From: a bacterium | Lineage (GTDB): Bacteria; Patescibacteriota; Gracilibacteria; Peribacterales; Peribacteraceae | Assembly (NCBI GenBank): GCA_029558515.1 | Contig: JAKQEM010000018.1 | Coordinates: 1 to 64,000 of the forward strand | DNA length: 64,000 nucleotides | Direction of reading: 5' to 3' | Part shown: one piece after another, positions 29,120 through 56,436 of the stretch | How the letters are laid out: every line of letters starts with the position of its first letter | Position numbering within the stretch: the first letter of the stretch is position 1 | Position numbers and translations under genes: made by a program | Notes under the pieces: model-generated | What the model was told of the DNA's origin: nothing | The model's input: the letters and a program-made list of their open reading frames with translations, nothing else | Databases searched by the model: none

Positions 29120-29285
29120 CTCTGTTCAAAACAAACCACAAGATATTGATCTTCGATCACGTCATCAAGAAATCATCGGATGAGTTTGATCACCCTGTCA
29201 ATGACGGCATGAGCAACACATAATGTCAGAAAACCACCCCTGAACAATCATGTATCTCAGCACGTTTGTGCTAATCTGCACTCTC

Positions 29286-30287
29286 ATGTTCACGGGTATC
29301 ATCGAAGCAACGGCAGCGGTACGGGAGAAACGTGCGACGGGCCTCATCGTCGAGCGTCCTGCATCGTTTGATGATCTGCGTCCGGGTGGGAGTGTGTGCG
29401 TGAACGGCGTGTGTTTGACGATCGCGGCGATCGACGATGCGACGCTCTCGTTTGATGTCATGCCGGAAACGTGGAACAAGACTAGACTAGGCGATCTCAA
29501 ACCGGGACATCGCGTGAATGTGGAACGAGCGATGCGGGCGGACGGACGCTTCGACGGACACATCGTACAGGGGCATGTGGAAGGAGTAGGAGAAGTTCTG
29601 TCTATCGCCCCCACCCCCCAACCCCCTCCCCCAAGGGGAGAGGGGGCACACAAGGCCTTGGAAGGAGAACGGTACCCAGCGCCATTGCTCATCAATCGAT
29701 CACGCCACATGCGTAAAGCGCCAACAAAGAGCGAAGCTATCTTGTGGGATGCTGTACGGAATCATCAGTTGGGATATCACATCCGACGGCAGCGCCCGAT
29801 TGGAAAATATATTCTTGATTTTTTCTGTGAAGAGAAACTGCTTGGCATTGAAGTGGACGATAAAATTCATGAACGACAAAAAGAATATGATGCATTGCGT
29901 GATCGAGAATTGCATGCACTCGGCATACGCATGCTGCATGTCACCAGTGAAGAAGTTGAACACGATACTTCTGCCATTCTTGAACGGATCCGTGTCGCTC
30001 TGCATGTCACCCCTCCACCGCACGGGGGAGGGGCCGGGGATGGGGGCATTCTTTTGGAAATCAATCTACCACCGAATCTCTCCCCCTTCGTCCTCCCCAA
30101 AGGTTCCATCACCGTCGACGGCGTTTCGCTGACGGTTGCCTCTCTCACCCCATCAGGGTGTACACTGGCCCTCATTCCCACGACGCTGCGCGAAACGACC
30201 CTGGGAGCGCTCCGCAAGGGCGACCGCGTGAACATCGAGACGGACATTCTGATCCGCAGCATCGCCGCCCTCCTTCCACAGACATGA
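29286..30287 (+). CDS. ribE: Riboflavin synthase alpha chain interrupted in frame by a DUF559-containing element
   Basis: MFTGIIEATAAV...GHIVQGHVEGVGEV [insert] LLEINLPPNLSPFVLPKGSITVDGVSLTV...LRETTLGALRKGDRVNIETD. Confidence 0.9.
   Translation: MFTGIIEATAAVREKRATGLIVERPASFDDLRPGGSVCVNGVCLTIAAIDDATLSFDVMPETWNKTRLGDLKPGHRVNVERAMRADGRFDGHIVQGHVEGVGEVLSIAPTPQPPPPRGEGAHKALEGERYPAPLLINRSRHMRKAPTKSEAILWDAVRNHQLGYHIRRQRPIGKYILDFFCEEKLLGIEVDDKIHERQKEYDALRDRELHALGIRMLHVTSEEVEHDTSAILERIRVALHVTPPPHGGGAGDGGILLEINLPPNLSPFVLPKGSITVDGVSLTVASLTPSGCTLALIPTTLRETTLGALRKGDRVNIETDILIRSIAALLPQT
29606..30050 (+). mobile_element. In-frame element: hairpin end - DUF559 nuclease domain - hairpin end
   Basis: GCCCCCACCCCCCAACCCCCTCCCCC-aa-GGGGAGAGGGGG left; CCCCTCCaccgcacGGGGGAGGGGCCGGGGATGGGGGC right; between them MRKAPTKSEAILWDAVRNHQLGYHIRRQRPIGKYILDFFCEEKLLGIEVDDKIHERQKEYDALRDRELHALGIRMLHVTSEEV. 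Confidence 0.8.
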
Positions 30288-30899: not shown

Positions 30900-32111
30900 A
30901 TGTCCCCTTTCTCCTCCATTCCCGACGCCATCGCCGCCCTGCAGCAGGGCCGCATGATCGTCGTAGTGGATGATGAGGATCGTGAGAATGAGGGGGATTT
31001 GATCGCCTCCGCCGAACATGTGACCGAGGATCAGATGGCATTCCTCATCCATCACACCAGCGGCATCGTGTTTTTGGCCATCACGAATGAAATCGCCGAC
31101 CGCCTCCGCCTGCCGCCGATGGTCCCCGTGAACACCGCCAAGCGCGGCACTCCGTTCACCGTCAGCATCGAAGCACGGGAAGGCATTGAGACCGGCGTCT
31201 CCGCCAAAGACCGCGTGACGACCGTGCGCACCGCAATTCGTCCCGATGCCTCGCCGCATGATTTGGCGCGTCCGGGACACATCTTTCCCTTGCGTGCGGA
31301 TGACGGTGGCGTCCTCAAGCGCGCAGGTCATACGGAAGCCACGGTCGATCTCATGCAACTGGCGGGGTTGCGTCCCGGAGGCGTCGGTGCGGAACTGATG
31401 CATGAAGACGGCACCATGATGCGCCTCCCCGCACTCGAAGCGTTCGCACAGGAGCATGATTTCCCTCTCATCTCCATCGCAGATCTCATCGCCGAACGAC
31501 ATTCCCGGGAACATCTCATCAAACTGGAAGCGGAAGCGAACCTGGAAACGCACGTCGGTCTGTGGCGCATCAAAGTGTACAGTGACTCCGTCTCCAAACG
31601 AGAGCACATTGCTCTCATCCGAGGTGACATTCATCCGGCGAAACCCACTCTCGTCCGCGTCCACTCCGAATGTCTGACGGGCGACATTCTGCACTCGCAA
31701 CATTGTGATTGCGGCTGGCAACTCGACCGCGCGATGCACATGATCGCACAGGAGGGAATGGGTGTGATCGTTTACATGCGTCATCAGGAGGGACGCGGCA
31801 TCGGCCTGTCCAACAAGATACGGGCGTACGCTCTGCAACAGGAACAAGGATTGGATACCGTGGAAGCCAATGAGAAGCTCGGATTCCCGCCGGACGCACG
31901 CAACTACGGCATCGGCGCACAGATCCTCCACGACGTAGGAGTGGGAAACATCCGTCTTTTAACCAACAATCCGCGTAAAATTAGCGGACTCAAAGGGTTC
32001 AATCTGGAGATCGTGGAGCAAGTTCCCATCGCGATGGAAGCGCCGCCGCTCGGCTTACTTTCGTACCTCACCACCAAGAAGAACAAACTGGGGCATCTGC
32101 TCAATTTGTGA
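30900..32111 (+). CDS. ribBA: Bifunctional 3,4-dihydroxy-2-butanone-4-phosphate synthase / GTP cyclohydrolase II
   Basis: MIVVVDDEDRENEGDLIASAEHVT...HTEATVDLMQLAGL; HSECLTGDILHSQHCDCGWQLDRAMHMIAQEGMGVIVYMRHQEGRGIGL. Confidence 0.97.
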   Translation: MSPFSSIPDAIAALQQGRMIVVVDDEDRENEGDLIASAEHVTEDQMAFLIHHTSGIVFLAITNEIADRLRLPPMVPVNTAKRGTPFTVSIEAREGIETGVSAKDRVTTVRTAIRPDASPHDLARPGHIFPLRADDGGVLKRAGHTEATVDLMQLAGLRPGGVGAELMHEDGTMMRLPALEAFAQEHDFPLISIADLIAERHSREHLIKLEAEANLETHVGLWRIKVYSDSVSKREHIALIRGDIHPAKPTLVRVHSECLTGDILHSQHCDCGWQLDRAMHMIAQEGMGVIVYMRHQEGRGIGLSNKIRAYALQQEQGLDTVEANEKLGFPPDARNYGIGAQILHDVGVGNIRLLTNNPRKISGLKGFNLEIVEQVPIAMEAPPLGLLSYLTTKKNKLGHLLNL

Positions 32112-33135
32112 GACTGATTTCTTCATCCACCATCCCCGCTTGTCGGAAAGCGTCCCACGTACGTTGACCGCCTTCCACCAGGATGCTCGTGAGTCCGTGA
32201 TACCCTCCGGACGGTTCCGTGAGCGCTTGCCACAGCATCGTCCAATCGAAGCACTGTTTTTCAACCGGAACTTCCCGCAGCATCACTCCCCTCTTCGTGA
32301 GTTCACGCCACACATCTTCCTGTTCCCGCGTGACGGGAGGCGCGTGGACAATGATCGTTTCTGATCGACGATCATCGGAGACGATGCGCGCAGTAAGCTG
32401 AATGCGCAGGTGCGGATCGAGGATGATGCGCAAAGGATGGAACGTCTTCCCCTCTCCCGGTAGGCATACGGCGTGTGGAGGGAGAGGGGGTTGGGGGGTG
32501 AGGGAATGGAAGCGAACATCCAACTTCGGATCATCCGCGAGCACCGTCCCGACGCCGACCAGAATGGCATCGTGCGTGGAACGGAGAAACGTATGCGACC
32601 AAATGTTCTGTGCTTTCGATGTGATCGCAAGCGGCCTGCCATCATCCTCCGCGATGCGACCATCCCGGGTCCGTGCGGATTTGAGCGTAATGAACGGGCG
32701 ATTCTTCGTGCGCATTGAGAAAAATCCGCGATTCATACGTTCGCATTCCGTCTGTAGCACAGGCCCAAAAACCCGAACACCATTTTTAATCAATTTACCA
32801 ATTCCCTCCCCCCGCATCCGTTCGTCGGGATCCGTCATGCCATACACCAGATTCCGTACGCCGCGTTCGAGAATGATGTCCGTGCAGGGCGGCGTTTTCC
32901 CGTGATGACAACAAGGTTCCATATTCACATAGAGCGTATCCGTCGGCAGCACGGTGCCATCGAATCGCTCCAGCAGTGCTCGCTCCGCATGGGGCGCGCC
33001 GAATGCTTCATGCCATGCCTCCGCAATGATGCGTCCATCCCGTACCAACGCCGCTCCGACCATCGCGCCATCGCCCACGGAGCCGCGACCATGTGCGGCA
33101 AGAGCAAGGCAATGACGAATATGGGATGCATGCAT
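32101..33135 (-). CDS. ribD: Bifunctional diaminohydroxyphosphoribosylaminopyrimidine deaminase / reductase, with in-frame hairpin insertion
   Basis: PHAERALLERFDGTVLPTDTLYVNMEPCCHHGKTPPCTDIILERGVRNLVYGMTDPD; insertion SLTPQPPLPPHAVCLPGEG between DVRFH and KTFHPLRIILDP. Confidence 0.95.
   Translation of the reverse strand: MHASHIRHCLALAAHGRGSVGDGAMVGAALVRDGRIIAEAWHEAFGAPHAERALLERFDGTVLPTDTLYVNMEPCCHHGKTPPCTDIILERGVRNLVYGMTDPDERMRGEGIGKLIKNGVRVFGPVLQTECERMNRGFFSMRTKNRPFITLKSARTRDGRIAEDDGRPLAITSKAQNIWSHTFLRSTHDAILVGVGTVLADDPKLDVRFHSLTPQPPLPPHAVCLPGEGKTFHPLRIILDPHLRIQLTARIVSDDRRSETIIVHAPPVTREQEDVWRELTKRGVMLREVPVEKQCFDWTMLWQALTEPSGGYHGLTSILVEGGQRTWDAFRQAGMVDEEISLTN
32448..32506. repeat. Solo C/G-rich hairpin element inside ribD
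   Basis: CCCCTCTCCC-loop-GGGAGAGGGGGTTGGGGGGTGAGGGA. Confidence 0.75.
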
Positions 33136-52777: not shown

Positions 52778-54007
52778 ATGCTCTTCCTCCCCCTCACCTC
52801 CCCCCTCCTGCGCTCCGGCGACGACCTCGTCGCTTGTCTGCGCCTGCGGGAGAATGTGCGACCGGGGGATATCGTCGTGCTATCTTCAAAAGCGGTTGCG
52901 ACTGTGGAAGGAGCGACCGTAGACCTTGCGACGATGCGCGTGACAGAAGAAGCCCGCGTGTGGAGTGAGACGACCAAACGCTCCCCCGCGTTCTGCCAAG
53001 CGGTGCTGGAAGAAACCAAGAGACTCAACGGAACCATTCTACGTGCCGTCCCGGGAGCGATGCTGACGGAAGTGCGCCCCGAAGGCATGACTCGCGGGAC
53101 GATTCTGGTTGCGAATGCCGGATTGGATGAGTCGAATGTGCAACAAGGATATGCTGTGGGATGGCCGATCGATCCGATTGCGTCATTGCGAAGCATCAAG
53201 ACTCTCCTTTCTTCCTCCATCCCCCGGCCCCTTCCTCCACCCTTCGGCTCTGCTCAGGGCAAGCGGGAGGAAGGGGGGGATCTGAAAAAGAAGCCACTGT
53301 CGCAGACAATCAAATTCTTTGCACGTGAAATGCGCAGCAATCCAACAGAAGCAGAAGAAGTATTTTGGAATGCAGTACGATACGATCAACTCAACGTTCG
53401 CGTTCGACGTCAGCATCCCATCGGAGGACGGATTCTTGACTTCTTCATCCCAAAACAGAAATTGGGCATTGAATTGGACGGCGCGTATCACACCAGAACA
53501 ATTGCACAACGAACCGAGGATGCATTGCGAGATGCGTACCTGGCACAGGATCACAATGTGCAGGTTATTCGGTTTTCCAACGATGAGATCCTTACTGATC
53601 TTCCTGCTGTCCTTCGAGCTCTTCGCACCATCCTGGGAACCTCCCCCTCCTCCATCGGAGGAGGGGGCCGGGGGGTGGAGGAAAAGGGGGTGAATAATTT
53701 CGCTCTCCTCCTCTCCGACTCCTCCTGCACCCCCCGCCGCCGGGGTGTCACCGCCATCGCGCTGGCTGCGTGCGGGATCGATCCGCTCGTCAGCACCATC
53801 GGAACGAACGATCTCTTCGGCAGGCAGATGACCATCACCGTGGAAGCCGTCGCCGACCAACTGGCAACGGCAGCCAATGCGCTCATGGGCAACGCCGCGC
53901 AGTCGATCCCGGCAGTGATCATTCGCGATCACGGACTTCCGTTCTCGGATGTGTGCGGCTGGGTTCCTGGCATCGAGCCGGAGGAAGATTTGTTCGGGAG
54001 GTTGTAG
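52778..54007 (+). CDS. Coenzyme F420-0:L-glutamate ligase (CofE)-like protein interrupted in frame by a DUF559-containing element
   Basis: LRENVRPGDIVVLSSKAVATVEGATVDL...TRGTILVANAGLDESNV...[insert]...NNFALLLSDSSCTPRRRGVTAIALAACGIDPLVSTIGTNDLFGRQMTITVEAVADQLATAANALMG. Confidence 0.8.
   Translation: MLFLPLTSPLLRSGDDLVACLRLRENVRPGDIVVLSSKAVATVEGATVDLATMRVTEEARVWSETTKRSPAFCQAVLEETKRLNGTILRAVPGAMLTEVRPEGMTRGTILVANAGLDESNVQQGYAVGWPIDPIASLRSIKTLLSSSIPRPLPPPFGSAQGKREEGGDLKKKPLSQTIKFFAREMRSNPTEAEEVFWNAVRYDQLNVRVRRQHPIGGRILDFFIPKQKLGIELDGAYHTRTIAQRTEDALRDAYLAQDHNVQVIRFSNDEILTDLPAVLRALRTILGTSPSSIGGGGRGVEEKGVNNFALLLSDSSCTPRRRGVTAIALAACGIDPLVSTIGTNDLFGRQMTITVEAVADQLATAANALMGNAAQSIPAVIIRDHGLPFSDVCGWVPGIEPEEDLFGRL
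53214..53690 (+). mobile_element. In-frame element: hairpin end - DUF559 nuclease domain - hairpin end
   Basis: Left CCCCCGGCCCCTTCCTCC...GGAGGAAGGGG; right CCCCCTCCTCCatcGGAGGAGGGGGCCGGGGGGTGGAGG; between MRSNPTEAEEVFWNAVRYDQLNVRVRRQHPIGGRILDFFIPKQKLGIELDGAYH...DALRDAYLAQDHNVQVIRFSNDEIL. Confidence 0.8.
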
Positions 54008-54850: not shown

Positions 54851-54867
54851 GTGACAATCCCTCTCTC

Positions 54868-54930
54868 CATTCCCTCACCCCTTCCCCTCTCCCTCCTCGC
54901 ACCGCACGCCGCCCGGGAGAGGGGTGTCGG
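54868..54930. repeat. Intergenic solo C/G-rich hairpin element
   Basis: TCCCTCACCCCTTCCCCTCTCCC-loop-GGGAGAGGGG. Confidence 0.65.
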
Positions 54931-55140: not shown

Positions 55141-56379
55141 CTATTTACTCTGTTTCATCACATCGATAAACGAATCAAACAAATAATTCGCATCCTCCGG
55201 TCCGGGAGTGGCCTCCGGATGAAACTGCACGGAGAAAAATCTGCCTGACTCATGCATGATCCCTTCGACCGATCCGTCATTGGCATTCGTGAACCACACG
55301 CGCCATCCCGCGGGCAACTTGTCACTGACGGCAAAACCGTGATTCTGTGACGTAATCAGACATCGCTCGCCTCTCACCTCCATCCCCCTGCCCCTTCCTC
55401 CACCGGAGGAAGGGGGGACAGAGCCTGTCTCCCCCTCTCCCATGGAGAGGGGGTCGGGGGGAGAGGAAGAAACCTCCACGCACGGCTGGTTCATCCCCCG
55501 ATGTCCGTACGGCAACTTGTACGTATCACCGCCGATGCCCAGTGCGAGGAGCTGATTGCCGAGGCAAATACCGAACGTCGGAATGTCCTGTTCGATTGCT
55601 TTCTTGATCTGCGCGATCGTCGCAGTGCAAGTTTTGGGGTTGCCGGGTCCGTTGCTGATGAGCACGCCGTCGATCGTTCCCTGATAGGAATCGAGATCGA
55701 AATCCCACGGCACGCGGATCACCGTCACGCCGCGCTTGAGAAAGCTGCGCAGGATGTTGCGCTTCATGCCGCAATCATAAGCGAGGACGACGGGAGTATT
55801 GGGTATTGAGTATGGAGTATTGAGGTCAGAAAAGGATGTGCCATCCGGGAAATAGACAATCGGTTCCTTGATGCTGACTTCTGCAACGAGATTTTGTCGA
55901 TTGGGATCCGCAATGTCATTTTGCATTTTGAATTTTGCATTTTGCATTTCCTGGTCCTCTTGCACAATCCTCCCCAACATCACTCCTTCCTCCCGCAGCT
56001 TCTTCGTCAGCATCCGCGTGTCGATGCCCGTGATGCCCGGAATGCCGTGATGCTCCATCCAGCGCTGCAGGGAACTCACCGCCGCATGGTGACTGTACTC
56101 GTCACTCACTTGGGCCACGACAAGCCCACGTACCTGAATCTCCTCGCTCTCCAGATGCTGCGAAAAACCCCAAGAATTTTTCTCCTCGCTCGGCACGCCG
56201 TAGTTGCCGATCAGCGGATACGTCATCACCAATATCTGCCCCCGATAGCTGGGATCCGTCATGCTCTCCGGATAGCCGACCATCCCCGTGGCAAAGACGA
56301 CTTCGCCGTCACTGTCCGTCGCGGCACCGAACGATTGGCCATTGAGCACCGTCCCGTCCGATAAAATGAGAGAAGCCAT
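55141..56379 (-). CDS. carA: Carbamoyl-phosphate synthase small chain, with several in-frame repeat insertions
   Basis: MASLILSDGTVLNGQSFGAATDSDGEVVFATGMVGYPESMTDPSY...ISNGPGNPK...FGICLGNQLLALGIGG...LITSQNHGFAV. Confidence 0.95.
   Translation of the reverse strand: MASLILSDGTVLNGQSFGAATDSDGEVVFATGMVGYPESMTDPSYRGQILVMTYPLIGNYGVPSEEKNSWGFSQHLESEEIQVRGLVVAQVSDEYSHHAAVSSLQRWMEHHGIPGITGIDTRMLTKKLREEGVMLGRIVQEDQEMQNAKFKMQNDIADPNRQNLVAEVSIKEPIVYFPDGTSFSDLNTPYSIPNTPVVLAYDCGMKRNILRSFLKRGVTVIRVPWDFDLDSYQGTIDGVLISNGPGNPKTCTATIAQIKKAIEQDIPTFGICLGNQLLALGIGGDTYKLPYGHRGMNQPCVEVSSSPPDPLSMGEGETGSVPPSSGGGRGRGMEVRGERCLITSQNHGFAVSDKLPAGWRVWFTNANDGSVEGIMHESGRFFSVQFHPEATPGPEDANYLFDSFIDVMKQSK
55381..55468. mobile_element. 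Empty paired-hairpin (MITE-like) element inside carA
   Basis: CCCCCTGCCCCTTCCTCCaccGGAGGAAGGGG - 9-15 nt spacer - CCCCCTCTCCcatGGAGAGGGGGTCGGGGGGAGAGG. Confidence 0.7.
55794..55828. repeat. Heptamer array (5 x 7 nt) within carA coding sequence
   Basis: gagtatt gggtatt gagtatg gagtatt gaggtca. Confidence 0.75.
55917..55951. repeat. Heptamer array (5 x 7 nt, CATTTTG type) within carA coding sequence
   Basis: cattttg cattttg aattttg cattttg catttcc; translated as EMQNAKFKMQND. Confidence 0.8.
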
Positions 56380-56436
56380 AGAAAGATCCCGCACAGGGTA
56401 GCGAGTCACAAAGCATCTGTCACGTACGCATGTGCA

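Follow-up and report, generated by a model that had tools for sequence, protein, structure and literature searches.

The CofE-like Gene and Its Insert

Does a nuclease domain that lies between matching hairpin ends inside an enzyme gene mark a mobile element, or is it the outcome of a chance domain fusion? The question is raised by an open reading frame for a CofE-like gamma-glutamyl ligase (52778–54007, + strand, 409 aa) in the window, as we call the whole 64,000-nucleotide stretch of DNA that was analysed. The original prediction, made from the letters alone, held that CofE homology stops within this frame, resumes after an in-frame insert with matching hairpin ends, and that the insert and a relative in ribE belong to a mobile family. 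The break in homology was confirmed by a Pfam scan, which placed DUF559 at aa 178–283 of the product (E = 8e-23), between two stretches matching F420_ligase/CofE. The insert occupies approximately 53212–53683, the frame is preserved throughout and the DUF559 nuclease is intact. Its left end (53212–53276, + strand) is composed of a C-rich outer arm (53212–53227) and a hairpin (53228–53276) with arms pairing at 11 of 11 bp around a 27-nt loop, and reads ..SSIPRPLPP..EEGG. The cargo (53309–53629, + strand) is a DUF559 (Vsr/EDxHD-like) nuclease domain with an intact DF..E.DG..H motif. The right end (53643–53683, + strand), an inverted copy of the left one, starts with a hairpin (53643–53667; arms 11/11 bp, loop 3 nt) and continues as a G-rich outer arm up to 53683. 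The ends match as had been claimed, with a hairpin on each side and a terminal inverted repeat (53212–53238 / 53657–53683) that is 27 nt long and 93% complementary. The precise insertion junctions of this element and of the one in ribE are uncertain by a few bases.

The sister copy splits the riboflavin synthase gene ribE (29250–30287, + strand) between its two lumazine-binding domains. It spans 29607–30047, with the left end at 29607–29646, the DUF559 cargo at 29694–30002 and the right end at 30010–30047, all on the + strand. It has two hairpins, one of them at 29622–29646, and its terminal repeats (29607–29630 / 30024–30047, 75%) are weaker than those in cofE. No other DUF559 copies are present in the 1.31-Mb host genome, which its named relatives assign to Candidatus Peribacteria. 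The homology between the two cargos, asserted in the original prediction together with a proposal to align them, amounts to 41% identity over 103 aa (E = 2e-25), and the residues singled out there (RRQ, DF, E.D, H, D and R) show little or no variation among 17 in-frame copies. Both inserts, again as described, share the orientation and the frame of the host gene.

Hairpin DNA without cargo is found in the same window. A solo hairpin end (32448–32504, − strand) lies in frame in ribD (ORF 32101–33135, − strand) and reads SLTPQPPLPPHAVCLPGEG, another (54867–54925, + strand) is intergenic, and a two-ended derivative without cargo (55378–55470, − strand) lies in frame in carA (ORF 55141–56409, − strand) and reads SSPPDPLSMGEGETGSVPPSSGGGRGRGMEV. 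We infer that the ribD and carA copies are non-autonomous relatives of the element.

Ends and Cargo as One Unit

The association of ends and cargo was analysed in two samples: 70 DUF559 loci from genomes of Peribacteria and relatives, found by a whole-genome search not biased by the cargo pattern, and a named set from other phyla, which the search pattern had skewed towards one cargo type. A left/right inverted-repeat score of at least 14 was reached by 47 of the 70 loci in the former sample, as against 1 of 323 displaced windows at the same loci; in the named set, matched ends accompanied 44 of 80 loci and 3 of 585 displaced controls. A degenerate hairpin pattern gave 25 matches in the host genome and none for its mirror-image control. 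Taken together, these comparisons indicate that the matched ends and hairpins are more than chance. Elsewhere in the family solo hairpins number up to 46 per genome, and almost all own-family copies shown, whether intergenic or in frame, have the C-rich hairpin and outer arm on both sides.

True left/right pairs score approximately 18 on average, compared with approximately 10 for ends swapped between elements. Across different genomes, the similarity of ends correlates with the similarity of cargos (Spearman 0.21–0.43; 0–7 of 2000 permutations reach the value), a relation also expected from plain co-inheritance of the unit. Two units in one genome (G004, L009 and L055) are 83% identical in unrelated flanks, their homology beginning at or just before CCTCACCCCC (the 8 preceding bases match too) and stopping near GGGGGATGAGG; G031 has another similar pair in unrelated flanks (L012/L054). 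Ends and cargo demonstrably travel together as a unit, and this unit is very probably mobile.

Some lines of evidence were abandoned. The single-strand folding energy of the ends is only modestly better than that of same-composition shuffles (z from −0.2 to −2.6), and inverted-repeat statistics were used in its place. The notion that stop codons are exceptionally rare in the poly-pyrimidine/purine ends was rejected, with 4.83 of 6 frames open in the in-frame ends and 4.71 in shuffles, while stand-alone ends have 3.98 open frames compared with 4.32 in same-base shuffles. At one locus (L050, G011:C13:33253-34138), two identical DUF559 copies stand in tandem, 565 bp apart, and share hairpins; this pair was set aside as evidence of mobility because it may be an assembly artefact, with tandem amplification as the alternative.

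A Chloroflexota-dominated clade of stand-alone DUF559 genes (L183, L193–L197, L201–L209, L212, L214–L215, L223 and L225) lacks matched ends, so that DUF559 alone does not define the element. The members of this clade are possibly settled, non-mobile relatives.

Range of In-Frame Hosts

Matched hairpin ends flank DUF559 genes repeatedly, in Peribacteria, Bacteroidota, Helicobacter and Rickettsiales. Most of the genomes surveyed are metagenome-assembled. The element is found in intergenic DNA as well as within conserved genes, where it is in frame and the host enzyme is kept on either side. Counting as in-frame those copies with at least 60 codons of the ORF after the domain, or an ORF of at least 340 aa, 73 of the 161 compared qualify. 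The Peribacteria hosts include ribE (7 genomes), cofE, murD (twice), rsmG (twice), a glycosyltransferase (twice) and tsaC, several of these names having been assigned by reading the sequence. In the named set, which comprises Bacteroidota, one Rickettsiales genome and Helicobacter sp. 15-1451, the hosts include leuS, ileS, metG, metH, mnmE, murC, acetyl-CoA synthetase, UDP-galactopyranose mutase, sugar epimerases and ispF (N-terminal). Further copies from Bacteroidota and Rickettsiales add priA, gmk, rpiB, tsaC and tlyA.

Empty Sites, Cargo Trees and Horizontal Spread

The original prediction would have failed if no empty-site orthologs existed and the cargo phylogeny followed the host-gene phylogeny exactly. 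Neither turned out to be the case. Uninterrupted orthologs of both genes are common: CofE is whole in approximately 20 relatives, and among these genomes a DUF559 insert is seen only in the host genome, while RibE has the element in 7 genomes, each time at the same loop, and lacks it in approximately 20, with 15 uninterrupted orthologs aligning cleanly at that loop. In the cargo tree, a single clade (99/93) unites all 17 in-frame Peribacteria copies to the exclusion of the intergenic ones, and the ribE cargos are scattered over several places within it. Instead of pairing with the ribE cargo from the same genome, the cofE cargo groups with the cargos of ribE in a second genome (G013), the foreign copy beside it (87/90), and of rsmG in a third (G009). 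A wider tree, based on approximately 108 columns and with many forks unresolved, nests two Cyclobacteriaceae copies within the Peribacteria in-frame clade and distributes the leuS elements over at least two cargo lineages.

The leuS gene was compared in 36 Maribacter-genus genomes, of which 26 have it uninterrupted (one of them keeps a short remnant in the loop), 5 have a DUF559-sized insert and 4 have other short in-frame repeats. The host leuS of G059 has 90–95% DNA identity to those of G091 and G107, which bear a different insert. Two genomes of different species, G090 and G109, share an insert with a dS of 0.27, as against 0.85 for the leuS host (2e-5 in a rough Fisher test on approximate counts); the leuS of each is closer to that of relatives without the element, and the identity between the two declines from 93% to 77% on crossing the right junction of the insert. 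The lower dS of the insert, the nearer empty hosts and the drop at the junction imply that the leuS loop was entered after the divergence of the genes in at least one of the two genomes. Judged by these sequence comparisons, the Maribacter leuS insert has spread horizontally.

The same leuS loop (L258–L296) also holds unrelated short in-frame repeats, namely a CTGAGCGTAGCCGAAGTGACG palindrome in G091, G107 and G093 and a different repeat in G096; it is a hotspot of tolerated in-frame insertion. Likewise, in G002, G023, G008 and G024 (L098, L111, L113 and L114), the cofE loop that holds the DUF559 element is occupied by other short palindromes or repeats, also in frame. Since unrelated repeats occupy the same loops, common sites may reflect tolerance and need not mean target recognition. 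The recurrent site in ribE could partly be due to vertical inheritance.

The element meets the criteria of a mobile element in that one unit occurs in unrelated flanks, sites are found empty, and the cargo tree is unlike the host tree. With the Maribacter leuS case added, the preference of the original prediction for a mobile family over chance domain fusion is supported, transposition and the role of the nuclease being inferred. Chance fusion or shared domain architecture is rejected on account of the empty sites, the unrelated hosts and the disagreement between the cargo and host trees.

The Nuclease Cargo

The cargo fulfils the criteria of the DUF559 / Vsr-EDxHD superfamily, i.e., a profile match, a PD-(D/E)XK-like core and the DF..E.D...H residues. 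D44, F45, E55, D57 and H61 (cofE cargo numbering) are invariant in the 17 in-frame copies, and 70 of the 71 in-frame copies retain an intact catalytic motif. The dN/dS of the cargo, proposed as a check in the original prediction, is 0.02–0.13, with dS near or past saturation in several pairs; as far as substitution rates can tell, the nuclease residues have been shown to be under purifying selection. The AlphaFold2 model of the cargo has a pLDDT of 88.8, and the nearest PDB structures are 3hrl and the homing endonuclease I-Bth0305I (3r3p), at a TM of 0.67, with Vsr matched more weakly; the profile match has an E of 1e-4. Mixed alignments for the CofE fusion were misaligned, and the RibE fusion was chosen for modelling. 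Its cargo and most of the host are predicted with confidence, and low confidence affects both hairpin-encoded linkers, host segment 88–95 and the termini. It is inferred that the host enzyme remains functional while bearing the nuclease as an additional domain, expression of the fusion protein not having been shown.

Pfam scans of 12 fused proteins found no intein domain and no match to an IS/DDE transposase family; the inserts consist of hairpin-encoded linkers and DUF559, the only catalogued family between the hairpin ends in these proteins. The absence of a splicing domain there led us to reject an intein. No HUH/Y1 (RAYT) transposase was found in the cargo, which all profile and fold searches returned as DUF559. 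In the pairs compared by eye, no target-site duplication was seen and no target motif was recognised. A phage-borne homing endonuclease gene was discarded with one weak phage match only (34% identity), and so was a defence gene, with only a marginal PADLOC match (E 9e-4). Plasmid matches are sporadic DUF559 genes.

Proposed Mechanism and Alternatives

We favour, with a probability of roughly 0.68, a mobile unit driven by its own Vsr/EDxHD-type nuclease, in which hairpin DNA encodes peptide linkers. The unit of approximately 440–480 bp consists of a hairpin left end, one DUF559 domain with the Vsr/EDxHD fold and an inverted copy of that end. With no stop codon through the host frame, the ribosome would read across the element, the GC-rich ends would become flexible linkers once translated, and the nuclease would be carried, as an added domain in a surface loop, by a functional enzyme and be expressed from an essential gene. 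It may then nick or cut DNA, its substrate being either the hairpin ends or an empty target, after which repair or strand transfer would copy the element to a new site. In essential genes, the survivors would be only in-frame insertions in tolerant loops. DUF559 is probably the mover; the cleavage mechanism is inferred and no movement has been observed. We consider the chances even that this is a new autonomous class, in which a small Vsr-type nuclease with hairpin ends doubling as linkers spreads unspliced and in frame into essential genes across phyla and also mobilises the cargo-less hairpins seen as coding palindromes.

A homing-like selfish nuclease is conceivable, if doubtful. DUF559 would recognise and cut the empty host gene (leuS, ribE or cofE) and be copied in by break repair from the filled allele, the hairpin ends being by-products or serving only to protect the frame. 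The kinship of the cargo with I-Bth0305I, the filling of one leuS loop in several genera and of one ribE loop in 7 genomes, and the spread of the leuS insert after host divergence would all suit such homing, which nevertheless leaves the matched hairpin ends unexplained and fits poorly with copies in dozens of unrelated genes and in intergenic DNA, with the entry of leuS by at least two cargo lineages, and with a domain of only approximately 105 aa, devoid of the DNA-binding extension of phage EDxHD enzymes (PMC3943268). It is likewise possible, though we think it rather unlikely, that extruded single-stranded hairpins are the substrate of DUF559, which would move hairpin-bounded DNA, solo hairpins included, as proposed for RAYT transposases on REPs; a single gene between two inverted hairpin ends, the genome-wide solo hairpins (25 in the host genome with none for its control, and as many as 46 in other members of the family) and the tracking of cargo by ends agree with this. 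However, the cargo has no HUH/Y1 motif, hairpins are present without DUF559 in G006, G015 and G018, and Vsr-type enzymes act on duplex DNA.

DUF559 might instead be a passenger, with the hairpin repeats moved by another enzyme and the domain kept for another role, e.g., mismatch repair or defence. The solo and cargo-less copies, also in frame (ribD, carA), the unrelated in-frame repeats in the same loops and the proposed role of the DUF559 protein VsrA of Caulobacter in mismatch repair (PMC12907096) speak for this option; we hold it improbable, as DUF559 is the sole catalogued family between the ends in the fused proteins scanned, ends and cargo co-vary, and a second enzyme was not found, albeit without a systematic search. 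An ordinary fusion, i.e., a domain acquired for the function of the host and inherited with the host enzyme, is hardly credible. In-frame coding, purifying selection and the single ribE loop in 7 genomes could be accommodated by it, but not the sporadic presence, the functionally unrelated hosts, the matched inverted ends, the like units between genes and the horizontal acquisition in Maribacter.

Relation to Known Systems

The element combines traits of three known systems, yet fails one defining trait of each. Rickettsia palindromic elements are 105–146 bp long, non-autonomous, without a known mover, and occur in and outside genes (PMC2229807). Like them, the DUF559 element places palindromic DNA in frame in conserved genes as well as outside genes; translation as part of a protein, as in Rickettsia, is matched by reading frame only and was not observed. 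Unlike them, it is not short and cargo-less, as it carries a conserved 105-aa nuclease between inverted hairpin ends, is longer and occurs in several phyla. In REPtrons, inverted hairpin repeats stand on both sides of a gene and also exist as solo copies (PMC3733652), an arrangement that the DUF559 element shares; however, RAYT is an HUH/Y1 enzyme, whereas the DUF559 cargo has a Vsr/PD-(D/E)XK-type fold. In the portions of the REPtron literature that could be examined, no RAYT read in frame within housekeeping enzymes was found.

With EDxHD homing endonucleases such as I-Bth0305I and with inteins, the element has in common a related catalytic fold (3r3p, TM 0.67) and a selfish nuclease in conserved host genes. 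It differs in its hairpin ends, in the lack of an intein or intron splicing part and in that the insert stays in the protein. Inteins reside at conserved active-site positions, whereas the DUF559 element is found in variable loops. An earlier study places DUF559 in the EDxHD family (PMC9403480), and the domain is also present in Caulobacter VsrA (PMC12907096). Vsr and Vsr-like mismatch endonucleases (E. coli Vsr, Caulobacter VsrA) belong to the same nuclease superfamily but are stand-alone repair-type genes, with no mention of hairpin ends or in-frame insertion in the parts of the sources available. The open-access literature naming DUF559, as far as accessible, gave no sign of an earlier description of such an element; subscription papers and preprints were outside the search, and an earlier description is not excluded. 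The hairpin-ended DUF559 unit has the appearance of a hitherto undescribed type of mobile element, no movement having been seen.

In-frame palindromic insertions have been known since the Rickettsia elements, with the mover unknown (PMC2229807); here, the same type of insertion brings its own nuclease, which makes the question of the mover testable. The element also suggests a third way for selfish DNA to reside in an essential gene, as a tolerated extra folded domain on flexible linkers and not through splicing at the RNA or protein level. It accounts for the puzzling DUF559 domains annotated inside leuS, metH, priA, murC and others, gives context to the CCCTCTCCC...GGGAGAGGG hairpins near DUF559-bearing genes, and its insertions point to permissive loops in enzymes.

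Loci in Other Families and Variant Copies

Two DUF559 loci whose ends are different and less GC-rich were noticed in genomes from other families of the same class: in G045 (L018) DUF559 lies upstream of miaA and in the same frame, and in G040 (L028) it lies within an Elp3-like radical SAM gene. The Rickettsiales ileS (L155) contains, besides DUF559, an in-frame GNAT acetyltransferase domain (ORF aa 558–701), which was rejected as a further cargo of the element because matched ends are absent. In G048 and G057, which belong to the same class, several TGA codons fall within the frame of the matches to DUF559 and ribE, which would be expected were TGA to code for an amino acid there.
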